Of a stretch of 34,250 bases of DNA, positions 73-4,832 are shown one piece after another (position 1 is the first letter of the stretch; each line of letters opens with the position of its first letter). The stretch covers positions 1-34,250 of the forward strand of contig NZ_JALSKT010000078.1 of assembly GCF_026988655.1 (NCBI RefSeq), written 5' to 3'. The translations under genes were made by a program, and so were the position numbers. The notes under the pieces are model-generated. The model made no database searches, was not told the DNA's origin, and saw only the letters and a program-made list of their open reading frames with translations. Source of the stretch: Sulfurimonas sp. GTDB lineage: Bacteria; Campylobacterota; Campylobacteria; Campylobacterales; Sulfurimonadaceae.

Positions 73-1344
73 TTACAAACCTAACTGATAGAGTTTTTTT
101 CTCTCGCTTGAGCCTGCGATATTGAGCTGTTTTCTATATTTCGCGATGGTTCTACGCACCATTTTTACCTTGAACTTATCTTGAATCAAATCAAGAAGCT
201 TCATATCACTCAAAGGCTTCACACGACTCTCTTGTTGGATGAGCGTTATCAAAAACTCTTTGATAGCTGCGTTTGAGATATCTTCATCTATGGCTGTAGT
301 AAAAAACTCTTTCATAGCAAGCACACCTCTGTCACAGGCGATATATTTGTTAGCAATAGCACGAGAAATGGTTGAGGGATTATGCCCAAATTCATCCGCA
401 AGAGTTTTTAAAGTAAGTGGCATGATCGCTCCACCTGTAAAAAATTCATACTGATACTCAACTATCATGAGCCCTACTTTGTAAAGCGTTGCTTTTCGCA
501 TATCAAGTGCATCCACAAGGGATTTTGCCTCTTTTATCTTTTGTGTAACAAACTCATGCTCAACACCATAAGCAGTGTCGATGTGTATGACTGGATAATA
601 CGCATCATTTAGCTTAACTTCTATCTGGTTTTCATCATTGAAGTAAATCATCAAATCAGGTACGACCTGCGCTGACTCTTCTTGATACTCTATGTTTGGT
701 GGGTTGCTAAAGGTAGAAAATATCCGCATCACTTCACTAAAATTCTCTTGCGAAGAGTAGCTGTGAATATTTTGCATATCACGAATAATTTCAACTGCAA
801 GTCCATAAGCCTTGTCGCTTATCTCTGAGTTGTCAAGTTGAAATAAAAAAGATTCAGATAAATCTTTTGCGCCTATGCCTACAGGTTCGATGTGCGCAAA
901 ACGCAGGCGAGTCTTCTCAAAAAAATCAATCTCAAGATCATTCTTTTGACAAAACTCTTCAGTTGCCCCCTCATAGTATCCAAACTCATCCAGATTTTCA
1001 ACAACATACTGCGCTATTTTTTGAGAAATTGGCGTGGGAAAAAGCGGTGCTCCGAGCTGTTCATCTAAAACTTCATAAAGCGATTTATGCTTTATCGTCA
1101 GGGCTTCTATCTGCTCAGTTCGAGAGTTGCTTACAGCACGTGAGATGATTTTTTTTGGAATCTTTTTTTCAAAATTCTCTTCATAGCCTGATTTTATTTC
1201 TATCACAGGATTGGCATCTACAAAAGGAGACATAGCTTCCCCCAAATCAGAAAGACTTGAGTGAAGTATCGGTAGCCAATTACGTAGAGTATTTGAGAGC
1301 TTATGCTTGGTCTCTACACTTTGAGATTGTCTTAATCCTGCCAT
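73..1344 (-). CDS. rpoN: RNA polymerase sigma-54 factor RpoN
   Basis: Sigma-54 directs RNA polymerase to -24/-12 promoters and needs an AAA+ activator to open DNA; in Campylobacterota it mainly serves flagellar rod/hook genes. The 423-residue protein has an N-terminal activator-interacting region (residues about 1-45, here not glutamine-rich), a core-binding middle and a helix-turn-helix-like stretch near residues 305-345 (LADEFGHNPSTISRAI). The C-terminal RpoN box, VRRTIAKYRKQ (about 396-406), contacts the -24 element. The gene lies 11 bases after lptB in the chain S4 protein-trpD-tsaE-lptB-rpoN. tsaE-lptB-rpoN is, to my knowledge, a conserved order in Helicobacter and Campylobacter. A candidate target promoter lies at 3791-3806 in the same window. 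The length is normal for the phylum. Confidence 0.96.
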   Translation of the reverse strand: MAGLRQSQSVETKHKLSNTLRNWLPILHSSLSDLGEAMSPFVDANPVIEIKSGYEENFEKKIPKKIISRAVSNSRTEQIEALTIKHKSLYEVLDEQLGAPLFPTPISQKIAQYVVENLDEFGYYEGATEEFCQKNDLEIDFFEKTRLRFAHIEPVGIGAKDLSESFLFQLDNSEISDKAYGLAVEIIRDMQNIHSYSSQENFSEVMRIFSTFSNPPNIEYQEESAQVVPDLMIYFNDENQIEVKLNDAYYPVIHIDTAYGVEHEFVTQKIKEAKSLVDALDMRKATLYKVGLMIVEYQYEFFTGGAIMPLTLKTLADEFGHNPSTISRAIANKYIACDRGVLAMKEFFTTAIDEDISNAAIKEFLITLIQQESRVKPLSDMKLLDLIQDKFKVKMVRRTIAKYRKQLNIAGSSERKKLYQLGL

Positions 1345-1355
1345 ATTTTCTAGTC

Positions 1356-2078
1356 TTAAAGCTTAAAGTTTTCGCCGAGATAATGCTTACGAACATCAGC
1401 ATTTTGTCCTATCTCATCACTTGTTCCACTTGCTAAAAGCTCACCTGCTTTGATAACATAAGCACGGTCACAAACATCCAAAGTTTCACGAACATTATGG
1501 TCAGTTATAAGTACGCCAATGTCATAAGAGACAAGCTGATGGATAACTTTTTGAATATCCATAACAGCGATGGGATCAACCCCTGCAAAAGGTTCATCTA
1601 GGAGTAAGAACTTTGGCTTATTCACAAGCGCACGAGCAATCTCCACACGACGACGCTCTCCACCGGAGAGACTAATTCCCTTACGATAGCGAATAGGTTC
1701 AATGTTGAACATATCCAAAAGCTCTAAGATGCGTTCCTCTTGGGCTTCTTCGCCTTTTATGCCTACTTGTGCGGCTATCATGAGGTTATCTTCAACTGTT
1801 AAATCTTTGAAGATAGAAGCTTCTTGAGGAAGGTAGCCAATACCTTTGCGTGCTCTAGCATGCAGAGGCATCCCTATCAAGTCTTCATCATCAAAAAAGA
1901 CCTTCCCACCAGAAGCTTCAACAAGTCCACAAATCATATAAAAGGTGGTAGTTTTTCCAGCACCATTTGGTCCTAAAAGTCCAACAACCTCGCCACTTTT
2001 TACTTCAAGAGAGATACTTTTAACTATCTCTAAATCTTTTATCTTTTTTTGTAGTTCTTGCGCTTTTAATGTGTGCAT
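1356..2078 (-). CDS. lptB: LPS export ABC transporter ATP-binding protein LptB
   Basis: LptB is the cytoplasmic ATPase that, with LptFG, drives extraction of lipopolysaccharide from the inner membrane. The 240-residue protein shows Walker [10 protein letters not shown] (36-44), the Q-loop in [11 protein letters not shown], the signature [15 protein letters not shown] (about 142-156), Walker [14 protein letters not shown] and the H-loop in [18 protein letters not shown] and DHNVRETL are typical of LptB rather than other ABC ATPases. The ATG at 2078 overlaps the 3' end of tsaE by 13 bases, which suggests coupled translation. rpoN follows 11 bases later. No permease subunits are nearby, as is usual for lptB. 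Confidence 0.95.
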
Positions 2079-2482
2079 ACAGTGTACTCTCTTTGCTTAT
2101 CTGAAATTTTTTCTATGTCGATGACCATGGTCTCGATGCCAACAGACTCTAAAAGTTCTATGAGTTTTTCATCGCCCCACTCTATAAAATGAAGCCCTTC
2201 TTTGTCTAACTCTTCAAGCATTCCAAGTGATATAAAATGCTCTACTCCATGATTGTAAATATCATAATGAAAAATTTTGTCACCATAGCATTGTTGCAAG
2301 GAAAAAGTAGGTGATGTGACATCATCCAAATAGCCTAGTTTTTTCGCAATATTTTTCACAAGTGTTGTTTTTCCTGCTGCTAAATCACCACGTAAAATGA
2401 TAACGCCATTTTGTATATTTTTTAAGATGTCATCAACAAGCACGTCAAGCTGCGTTTCGTTTAAAGTATAGCTTTTTTTCAT
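2066..2482 (-). CDS. tsaE: tRNA threonylcarbamoyladenosine biosynthesis ATPase TsaE
   Basis: TsaE is the P-loop ATPase that, with TsaB and TsaD, completes the t6A modification at A37 of ANN-decoding tRNAs. The 138-residue protein has Walker [10 protein letters not shown] (32-40), the family stretch [17 protein letters not shown], and the C-terminal FIEWGD typical of TsaE. The start at 2482 overlaps the trpD stop by 4 bases (ATGA), and its own 3' end overlaps lptB by 13 bases, so it sits in the middle of a translationally coupled chain. Its length matches the family. Confidence 0.94.
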
Positions 2483-3465
2483 AACTTGTTAGAAATCTCC
2501 ACTATCTGTTTAAGCTTTTTCTTTGCTCTAGCATTGCCTAATGCTTCACGTCCCATCTCAAGTCCATCTTGTATATCACGAGCCAAGCCATCGACCATCA
2601 AAGAAGCCGCAGTATTGAGCAACACTATGTCACGCTGCGCCTCTGTTGCAGAGTTGTCAAAGATATTTAACATAATTTTTGCATTTTCTTTTGCATCTCC
2701 ACCAGCTATGGCTTCAAGAGGAGCTAGCTTGAGACCATAATCACGAGGATTAAGTTCAAACTCTGTTAAAGTACCTTCTTTGAGACGAGTAGCGTAGGTG
2801 ATACCACTGATACCAATCTCATCCATGCCCTCTTGTGAACTTACAACAAGCGCTGAAGTTGCTCCATTGATTTTCAATGCTTCTGCCATTTTTGGCACAA
2901 AAACTTTATCAAAAACACCAAGCATATATTTTTGAATATTTGCTGGATTTGTTAGTGGTCCTAAGACATTAAAAATAGTCTTATTTTCTATGGATTTTCT
3001 CACCGGCATAATGAACTTCATAGCAGGATGATGATTTTGTGCAAACATAAAACACCAACCTGCCTCTTCTAAAAGTCTTGCATTTTTATCAATGCCCAAA
3101 GAGAGGTTAATACCCAAAGCTTCTAAAACGTCGGCACTTCCGCTTTTTGATGTTATGGAGCGGTTTCCATGTTTTGCGACCATTGCACCACAAGCTGCAG
3201 TAAGGATAGAAGTAGTAGTAGAGATGTTAAAAGAGCCTATCTTATCGCCACCTGTTCCAACAATGTCTATGGCATTTTTACGTGATTCTTGTGAAATAGG
3301 CAAAGCTATGGCAAAGCTTCGCATAACATCTGCTGCAGCTGCTATCTCTACTACAGGAGTATTTTCATCTAAAGTCATGCTAAGAAGTAAGTTGCGCATC
3401 GCTTCATCATTCATCTCGTGCTTAAAAAGTGAAGTAAATTGAGCTTTTGCCTCATCATATGTCAT
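2479..3465 (-). CDS. trpD: Anthranilate phosphoribosyltransferase TrpD
   Basis: TrpD transfers the phosphoribosyl group of PRPP to anthranilate, the second committed step of tryptophan synthesis. In the 328-residue protein the PRPP/Mg motifs are plain: GTGGD (70-74), NISTTT (80-85) and KHGNRSITSKSGSAD (98-112), followed by FNVLGPLTNPA. No TrpG glutamine amidotransferase domain is fused. Notably it stands alone, away from other trp genes, between an S4-domain gene (4-base overlap at its start) and tsaE (4-base overlap at its end). It is therefore likely transcribed with tsaE, lptB and rpoN rather than under a trp attenuator; none is visible upstream. Confidence 0.95.
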   Translation of the reverse strand: MTYDEAKAQFTSLFKHEMNDEAMRNLLLSMTLDENTPVVEIAAAADVMRSFAIALPISQESRKNAIDIVGTGGDKIGSFNISTTTSILTAACGAMVAKHGNRSITSKSGSADVLEALGINLSLGIDKNARLLEEAGWCFMFAQNHHPAMKFIMPVRKSIENKTIFNVLGPLTNPANIQKYMLGVFDKVFVPKMAEALKINGATSALVVSSQEGMDEIGISGITYATRLKEGTLTEFELNPRDYGLKLAPLEAIAGGDAKENAKIMLNIFDNSATEAQRDIVLLNTAASLMVDGLARDIQDGLEMGREALGNARAKKKLKQIVEISNKL

Positions 3466-3710
3466 GAGATTTCCTTAATGTATTGATCTTGTAATGATTT
3501 AGGAGTTGATTTCGTCGTAGGGATCTGTAAGACTTCGTATTTTTTAGCTTCATTGAGGTAATTTATAGTGATAACACTGCCAACTTCTACATTTTTACTC
3601 GCCTTTGCTACTGTACCATTAATAAGCACAACACCATTGCTAATCATATCTTGTGCAACTGAGCGCCGTTTAGTAATATTGACAGAATTTAAAAATTTAT
3701 CTATTCGCAT
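3462..3710 (-). CDS. Small S4-domain RNA-binding protein
   Basis: This is an 82-residue S4-domain protein that reads MRIDKFLNSVNITKRRSVAQ and continues with the S4 core DMISNGVVLINGTVAK and a basic C-terminus. Proteins of this kind (HslR/YbcJ-like) bind structured RNA, often the stalled large ribosomal subunit or rRNA; the exact target here is unknown. The open frame extends 15 codons further upstream, but GAGGAG lies about 10 bases before the ATG at 3710 and the homology starts at MRIDKFL, so this start was chosen. It is the first gene of the trpD-tsaE-lptB-rpoN transcript and overlaps trpD by 4 bases. Confidence 0.85.
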   Translation of the reverse strand: MRIDKFLNSVNITKRRSVAQDMISNGVVLINGTVAKASKNVEVGSVITINYLNEAKKYEVLQIPTTKSTPKSLQDQYIKEIS

Positions 3711-3744: not shown

Positions 3745-3750
3745 ATTGTA
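3745..3750 (-). promoter_or_regulatory. Candidate -10 element for the S4-trpD-tsaE-lptB-rpoN transcript
   Basis: Read on the minus strand this is TACAAT, about 35 bases before the S4-gene ATG and followed by an A-rich leader with GAGGAG. No clear -35 is seen, which is usual for sigma-70 promoters in Campylobacterota. Seen by eye only. Confidence 0.35.
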
Positions 3751-3790
3751 GACAAATAAAACTAAAAAGAATGTAAGAAATTGCTATAGT

Positions 3791-3806
3791 TGGAACATTT
3801 TTTGCA
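3791..3806 (+). promoter_or_regulatory. Candidate sigma-54 (-24/-12) promoter for the methyltransferase gene
   Basis: TTGGAACATTTTTTGCA spans 3790-3806. GG at 3792-3793 and GC at 3804-3805 are exactly 10 bases apart, the invariant spacing of RpoN promoters, and TTGGAAC...TTGC is close to the form I recall for Campylobacter and Helicobacter sigma-54 promoters. Transcription would begin near 3816-3818, giving a leader of about 60 bases before the ATG at 3879. It points at the methyltransferase gene and away from the S4/trpD operon. Confidence 0.6.
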
Positions 3807-3878
3807 TTAAATCGTGCTTAGCATACAAATCATAATTTTATAACAATTTTTAGGAATGATTCTTGCAAGATAATTCCT

Positions 3879-4832
3879 ATGGATAACATATACAAAACCC
3901 CTTTGTGGATGACAATAAAAAAAATAAAAAACAAACTTAAAATCACAAATACAAAAGAAACAGTTACATTTAAAGCTGTCAATCCGGATATAAGAAGTTC
4001 TCTTTATAATGGAAATAGTATTACAGTTAATAATGAAGATGTCATATATCGTGGCTACAAAAGCTGGCTAGATTTGGCACAGGTACTCAACTGCAGAATG
4101 CTCACACCTGAAAAAATTGATGACAATTTTGTCTTGATTCGTTATGAAAAACTTAATGAAGATAGTAGTTTTCATAAAAATATAGTAGACAAAGAAGAAA
4201 AATATGGAGAAAACTCCATCTTTAGTAAAATACACAAAAATGAAGAAACTGCATTTATTCACTATTATATGCAAGCACTTGAAAATGTAAAAATAGAGAC
4301 GAGAATAAGAATATTAAATCTTGGTGTCAATAGTGGCGATGAATTTGAAGCCATTCAAGCACTCAGTAAAAACTTTGAAAATCAAGAACTCATCGGTATA
4401 GATTATTGTTCCTCAGCTATAAACGCAGCAAAAGAGAAGTTCAAACGCAGTAGTAACATATCTTTTTACACGCATGATATAAATAAACTCGATGAACTAG
4501 AACTGGGTAAATTTGACCTCATCATTAGTATAGGGACATTACAAAGTTCAAATTTAGAATTTAACAAGCTACTTATGAATATCGTACAAAACCAACTCAA
4601 ACGCAGTGGCGCGATTATCCTTGGTTTTCCCAACTGTCGTTGGATTGATGGAGAGATGATTTATGGAGCAAGGGTAAAAAACTACCCTTTCTCAGAGATG
4701 GGGCTCCTATATAAAGATGTAATCTTCAGCAAGAAGTATATGCAACAAAAAAAGTTTAGAGTAACTGTTACAGGCAAAGACTATATCTTTTTAACAGCTA
4801 CTTCTATCTCAACTACGAAGCAAAACCACTAG
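3879..4832 (+). CDS. Class I SAM-dependent methyltransferase, target unknown
   Basis: This is a 317-residue protein with a C-terminal Rossmann methyltransferase domain. Motif I is ILNLGVNSGDE (about 143-153), where the usual DLGCGxG glycines are partly replaced. The acidic ribose-binding position is D in LIGIDYCSSAI (about 171-180), DINKL follows, and motif IV is FDLIISIGTLQSS (about 211-223). The first 140 residues are charged and match nothing I recognise; they may choose the substrate. There is no signal peptide. The gene is preceded by a sigma-54-like promoter, suggesting control with flagellar genes. It is a single-gene transcript whose 3' end overlaps the convergent ygiQ-type gene by 20 bases. 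Three copies of the octamer AAACGCAG fall within 186 bases of it (4421-4606). The substrate cannot be inferred. Confidence 0.82.
   Translation: MDNIYKTPLWMTIKKIKNKLKITNTKETVTFKAVNPDIRSSLYNGNSITVNNEDVIYRGYKSWLDLAQVLNCRMLTPEKIDDNFVLIRYEKLNEDSSFHKNIVDKEEKYGENSIFSKIHKNEETAFIHYYMQALENVKIETRIRILNLGVNSGDEFEAIQALSKNFENQELIGIDYCSSAINAAKEKFKRSSNISFYTHDINKLDELELGKFDLIISIGTLQSSNLEFNKLLMNIVQNQLKRSGAIILGFPNCRWIDGEMIYGARVKNYPFSEMGLLYKDVIFSKKYMQQKKFRVTVTGKDYIFLTATSISTTKQNH

Follow-up and report, generated by a model that had tools for sequence, protein, structure and literature searches.

What purpose is served by a sigma-54 promoter element that is placed between a stand-alone methyltransferase gene and a divergent gene cluster ending in rpoN, the gene for sigma-54 itself? 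In the window (the whole stretch of DNA analyzed, 34,250 nucleotides), the plus-strand sequence TTGGAACATTTTTTGCA at 3790..3806 has GG at 3792-3793 and GC at 3804-3805 with 10 bases between them, the GG-N10-GC form of a sigma-54 -24/-12 site, with a predicted +1 at about 3817 and 73 bases separating its GC from the methyltransferase ATG at 3879. The sequence-only reading had placed the element correctly, had noted that rpoN is less than 3 kb away (it is 2.4 kb off, facing the other way), and had taken the element for a sigma-54 promoter, with conservation of the GG/GC pair as its own test; the placement, the sigma-54 identity and the conservation held, the pair being found in 111 of 113 genus genomes. 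Its further view, that driving the methyltransferase is what the element is for, fared poorly: the slot, as we call the element, is kept where that gene is elsewhere (26 of 27 loci), and its spacing is phased to the rpoN operon. That reading had missed both the fixed attachment of the slot to the divergent S4/rpoN operon and a second GG-N10-GC element, TAGGAATGATTCTTGCA, at 3851..3867.

The exact pattern TTGGAACNNNNNTTGCA occurs in two copies in the 1.97-Mb assembly, the second being antisense within an ORF; this rarity, together with genus-wide conservation above that of shuffled sequence, ruled out a chance match. The looser pattern TGG-N9-TGC gave 20 matches in the window against 9.6 expected, which is weak evidence and a poor proof of a sigma-54 site. 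Fifteen sigma-54-like sites from the same genome were chosen by hand for comparison from 90 pattern matches, mostly GCT sites; six of them precede genes with FlgH, FlgI, FlgE/F/G-type, flagellin-N, LPP20 or DnaJ domains, and the others are within ORFs or have no clear gene. The slot resembles the sites ahead of the flagellar genes. After the GC of the slot comes an A in 75% of 109 genomes; at the six own-genome sites for which a gene is recognizable, a chosen set consisting mostly of GCT sites, the base there is T. Both rpoN and an enhancer-binding activator are encoded in the genome, where a search for NtrC-type activators returned one strong match, at 243 bits, and five weak ones of at most 31 bits. 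The strong match is a protein of 379 amino acids with receiver, AAA+ and lid domains, in which no DNA-binding domain was found. Flagellar sigma-54 promoters of the Campylobacterota (FlgRS-RpoN) have a GG-N10-GC core. The slot shares that core, and the activator resembles that of the FlgRS-RpoN system, including H. pylori FlgR, described as enhancer-independent in the available part of PMC9696931, in that a DNA-binding domain was not found; unlike those flagellar promoters, the slot does not stand ahead of a flagellar gene. Judged from its sequence, the element at 3790..3806 is a real, highly conserved sigma-54 docking site.

On its other side lie five minus-strand genes, separated by short gaps or overlapping: an S4-domain (RNA-binding) protein gene at 3462..3710 (Pfam S4, 3e-10; start ATG at 3710 by translation and alignment), a trpD-like gene of glycosyltransferase family 3 at 2479..3465 (Pfam), which we take to be trpD, then tsaE at 2066..2482 (Pfam TsaE, 1e-23), an ABC-transporter ATPase gene at 1356..2078 (an ORF, with an orthologue translation in genome G012), presumably LptB, and rpoN at 73..1344 (three Pfam sigma-54 domains). 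Because of those overlaps and short gaps, the five are probably co-transcribed as an operon. The S4 and rpoN matches could be scored on a single contig in 98 genomes and are 2.7-3.6 kb apart in every one; of the 114 genomes with S4, five have them on different contigs and 11, some for want of an rpoN match, were unscored. A conserved TTGTA anchor marks the predicted -10 box, TACAAT on the minus strand at 3745..3750, which is probably the -10 of a sigma-70 promoter for the S4-rpoN operon. Between this box and the slot is a conserved minus-strand block at 3761..3778, about ACTAAAAAGAATGTAAGA on the plus strand, that is kept also in G012, a genome with no rpoN match. The predicted sigma-70 promoter and the slot are back-to-back and do not overlap; the window's spacing, measured from the -10 box as the anchor for phasing, is 44 nt. 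The slot stands at the head of the five-gene rpoN cluster, the location of an rpoN autoregulation site, and is not oriented to transcribe rpoN: both in the window and in every one of the 111 genus genomes with a slot, it points outward.

The genus set comprised 135 genomes, of which 21 have no S4 match and one, G103, has a truncated flank. With a slot called at a score of 11 or more out of 13 within 300 nt of the S4 flank, 111 of the 113 genomes with a readable flank have an outward-facing slot upstream of S4, whatever lies beyond it, and shuffled flanks reach that score in 39 of 22,600 cases. Of 27 S4 loci, chosen for the most part because their methyltransferase gene lies elsewhere, 26 keep the slot, with unrelated or convergent DNA on its far side. 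In two genus genomes there is, additionally, a weak site about 245 nt out that faces inward.

The two exceptions differ in kind. In G013, the slot is present behind an insertion and can be seen from the methyltransferase side, which makes this the 112th genus genome. In G012, assembled as one contig, there is no match to rpoN or to flagellin; S4, trpD, tsaE and the ABC ATPase gene are retained, rpoN is absent, and the slot has decayed to read TTGCAATATTTTTATTTCTTGCAT next to its preserved flanking block. Six further genomes, 65-94% complete, have the slot and no rpoN match (G061, G123, G135, G137, G146 and G151); in each the S4 contig ends short of the position of rpoN, so these six neither support nor refute a tie between slot and rpoN. 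Loss of the slot alongside rpoN is seen in a single genome, G012, and such a loss does not tell which gene within the putative operon would be the target. G012 (loci L209 and L331) is a natural loss of the sigma-54 system.

The spacing between the slot and the predicted -10 box falls into discrete classes. In 116 genomes, 111 from the genus and five from sister genera, it is 24 nt (1 genome), 32 (2), 33 (4), 34 (59), 43 (9), 44 (28), 52 (7), 53 (5) or 54 nt (1), and no value falls between the classes 24, 32-34, 43-44 and 52-54. The filler is varied, with 33 distinct sequences among the 37 of the 43-44 nt class. On a rough tree of S4/trpD DNA with 116 rows and 440 columns (440 nt), in which 30 of the 113 inner branches are starred, there are 15 or more changes of class, the starred branches alone forcing just 3-4 changes per class. 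Reconstruction gave 25 changes of spacing, 10 of 1-2 nt, 13 of 8-10 nt and two of 18-19 nt, with none of 3-7 or 11-17 nt among them. The steps are of the kind that rotational constraint would produce, although the fit puts the period at 9.6 bp instead of 10.5. Some of them may have arisen by tandem duplication. In the S4 flank of G097 (L261), the extra turn between -10 and slot looks like the product of a tandem duplication, the unit of which contains ATGTAAG.

Sister genera of the same family show the same slot in both directions. Among 20 sister-genus genomes, 17 carry rpoN close to S4 on one contig, and 14 of those 17 have the slot, facing outward in five (G222, G263, G431, G466 and G166) and inverted, so as to point inward, in nine (G413, G427, G270, G489, G294, G212, G249, G363 and G443). 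The nine inverted 17-mers occupy the same position, 33-34 nt from the nearest -10-like anchor. No slot was found in G457, G484 and G498 despite linked rpoN, nor in G330, G352 and G475, where rpoN was not seen near S4 (the G475 contig being too short to tell). None of 20 genomes from other families has a slot that stands out at the S4 position; two of them, G242 and G175, have weak outward sites.

The DNA past the slot follows no such pattern. Sequence conservation fades within about 4 bases, and of the longest ORFs beyond the slot in the 111 genomes, 54 share its strand and 49 are convergent, three genomes having no ORF there and five too little sequence. Because conservation fades so fast and the neighbors are split 54 to 49, the slot is not explained by a conserved RNA or by a conserved gene; what evolution has kept is, as far as sequence can tell, the binding site itself beside the operon promoter.

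The methyltransferase gene at 3879..4832 (plus strand) encodes a class I SAM-dependent enzyme of 317 amino acids with an N-terminal alpha/beta domain of about 95 residues (Pfam, AF2 model with pLDDT 90.7, and fold search). Its Rossmann methyltransferase domain scores above the Pfam cut-off and aligns with NodS (3ofk_A) at Z 17.5 and rmsd 3.0 over 186 residues. The N-terminal domain (3879-4187) may have the beta-alpha-beta-alpha-beta-beta fold of TusA/SirA, to judge from the match of its model to TusA (3lvj_C; Z 7.3, rmsd 2.8, 70 aligned), a score tied with methyltransferase fragments; Foldseek gave no E below 0.001 for this domain, none of eight N-termini had a credible Pfam match, and no cysteine motif was seen in it.

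The second sigma-54-like element in the window (3851..3867, plus strand) has the form GC-N12-ATG, with a predicted +1 at 3878, one base ahead of the ATG, and five genus loci with the methyltransferase located elsewhere (L014, L092, L019, L102 and L103) have a GC-N12/13-ATG element of their own. In 30 distinct S4-adjacent loci, a sigma-54 GC lies 11-14 nt before the ATG in 11 (the window being counted through its second element) and 23-26 nt before it in another 11; in the other eight the GC is 31-61 nt away, and a TATAAT-like box precedes the ATG by 5-6 nt. Twenty-six non-adjacent genus loci of the same subfamily divide into 17 with a TATAAT-like box, five with a sigma-54 element and four with neither. 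Start codons were chosen by alignment, L036 is without a box, and the counts leave out the duplicates L182 and L164, the false L162, the subfamily-B-like L104 and L106, and L050, which lacks its 5' end. At the corresponding places, 865 other ORFs (mechanically called, at least 150 residues long, from the loci compared, antisense included) have no sigma-54 site and 32 TATAAT-like boxes. Going by these distances and that background, start codons tend to coincide or nearly coincide with a predicted +1, and messages made under either sigma factor would be leaderless and translated as such. The methyltransferase may be under sigma-54 through 3851..3867 in the window, or through the S4 slot itself (at 11-14 or 23-26 nt) in 21 relatives.

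A flagellar or surface substrate, also proposed by the sequence-only reading, has been weakened. Methyltransferase relatives (E below 1e-20) occur in 117 of 135 genus genomes, among them G010 (99% complete) and G012 (one contig), neither of which has a flagellin match, and this retention speaks against flagellin as the substrate. Some records with relatives bear the titles Sulfurovum and Arcobacter, and the available part of PMC9321776 describes Arcobacter as a genus that lacks RpoN. In many subfamily-B genomes, flagellin genes are roughly 9-17 kb from the methyltransferase, by eye and uncounted; the intervening stretch in G065 holds topoisomerase, radical-SAM/BATS protein and exchanger genes, among others, so that little weight can be given to this proximity. 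Members of the second methyltransferase subfamily (L020-L029, L106) lie directly behind another gene in the loci examined, with little or no room for a promoter; in several loci we take that gene to be upp. One record titled Helicobacter pylori PMSS1, a MAG and possibly mislabeled (L163), encodes a methyltransferase 57% identical to that of the window.

The reading we favor, with a probability of about 0.6, is that sigma-54 holoenzyme docks back-to-back with the promoter of the rpoN operon and feeds back on its own operon. Because the slot belongs to the control region of the cluster that encodes sigma-54, its role is more likely that of a self-control switch than that of a methyltransferase promoter. 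In living cells, the holoenzyme would bind at the slot, inside the control region of S4-trpD-tsaE-ABC ATPase-rpoN, beside the complex formed at the predicted sigma-70 promoter; since the distances shift by roughly one helical turn at a time, the two complexes probably interact, and do so on the same face of the DNA. Holoenzyme at the slot would alter the output of the sigma-70 promoter, and through this altered output RpoN would feed back on itself, with either sign. In the sister genera with an inverted slot, the site would fire into the operon. The methyltransferase would then be a neighbor in some genomes only, its ATG set at or near the +1 of one of three elements: the slot, a sigma-70 box or a second sigma-54 element. 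If the outward promoter does fire, its transcripts could matter.

A bolder version of this reading is offered tentatively, as possible rather than probable. Sigma-54 holoenzyme, held in a silent closed complex at a slot that works in either direction, would regulate the sigma-70 promoter of its own operon in the manner of a transcription factor, by way of same-face contacts; selection would have preserved the slot and its phase as the orientation and the DNA downstream changed, and the methyltransferase would add leaderless sigma-54 mRNAs, their +1 at the start codon, that are interchangeable with sigma-70 ones.

That the element at 3790 is after all the sigma-54 promoter of the methyltransferase, with a 62-nt leader in the window, would fit its orientation, the concentration of ATGs 11-14 or 23-26 nt past a sigma-54 GC (11 loci each of the 30 S4-adjacent ones) and the complete lack of sigma-54 sites at the 11-14 position among the 865 other ORFs. 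We consider it unlikely nonetheless, in view of slots conserved at loci that lack the methyltransferase, a spacing locked to the rpoN operon, the nearer element at 3851..3867 in the window itself, and the eight S4-adjacent loci in which the gene has its own TATAAT-like box 5-6 nt before the ATG. It is about equally improbable that the outward promoter yields a functional RNA, either a small RNA or an antisense to a convergent gene. The uniform outward orientation in 111 genus genomes and the 49 convergent neighbors as possible antisense targets would suit such a role, but neighbors vary, the slot is inverted in sister genera, and the loss of conservation about 4 bases past the slot was the ground on which a conserved RNA was rejected.

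The two remaining explanations seem to us less probable still. A different regulator might bind the 17-mer, its match to GG-N10-GC being incidental; sites that occur in both orientations in one slot are typical of transcription factors, and A after the GC in 75% of 109 genomes departs from the T at the six chosen own-genome sites. Against this stand the match to the full sigma-54 consensus, the likeness to sites ahead of FlgH, FlgI, FlgE/F/G-type and other genes, and the decay of the slot in G012, which lacks rpoN. The chance is similarly slim that sigma-54 serves here to tie S4, trpD, tsaE or the ABC ATPase to flagellar timing, with rpoN a mere passenger. As the last of five genes, rpoN could be one, and loss of the slot with rpoN would be expected for any target gene; yet the linkage of rpoN to the operon holds in all 98 scored genomes, and those sister genomes in which rpoN is not seen at the operon are also without the slot.

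The self-control switch we favor has partial precedents. In the dmp system (Po/Pr), a sigma-70 promoter drives a regulatory gene of the sigma-54 system, and Johansson and colleagues, as cited in PMC3844500 and PMC3427379, reportedly described in 2008 how sigma-54 RNA polymerase at a non-overlapping divergent promoter controls the sigma-70 promoter. The arrangement predicted here is likewise one of back-to-back, non-overlapping sigma-54 and sigma-70 promoters; unlike dmp, the sigma-70 side drives the rpoN operon itself, there is often no co-directional gene on the sigma-54 side, the spacing comes in classes about 10 bp apart, and the slot is invertible. Autoregulation of rpoN through sigma-54 promoters has been reported for several classes, and in other phyla as lacking significance (PMC12316311, in its available part, the main text of which does not contain the word Campylobacterota, the current name being the only one looked for), and negative autoregulation has been reported in R. 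leguminosarum VF39SM (as cited in the available part of PMC3538637). As in those cases, a sigma-54 site heads the rpoN transcription unit; in the window's genus, unlike them, the site faces away from rpoN and lies four genes upstream of it. No description of the outward orientation, the spacing classes or the inversion was found in the literature searched, which covered few subscription papers.

If the feedback is real, the sigma factor of the family's flagellar cascade would control its own operon from a fixed slot, and RpoN dosage would be part of the flagellar checkpoint. The locus carries a warning for annotation, that a sigma-54 site is not necessarily owned by the next gene downstream. 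It also offers a natural series, with spacers of 24, 34, 44 and 53 nt, both orientations and one loss, suited to asking if a bound, silent sigma-54 polymerase regulates a neighboring sigma-70 promoter through helical phase. As to the number of rpoN genes, at least two matches were found in 28 of 115 rpoN-positive genus genomes, some of them fragments, and two matches in 14 of the 20 sister-genus genomes.
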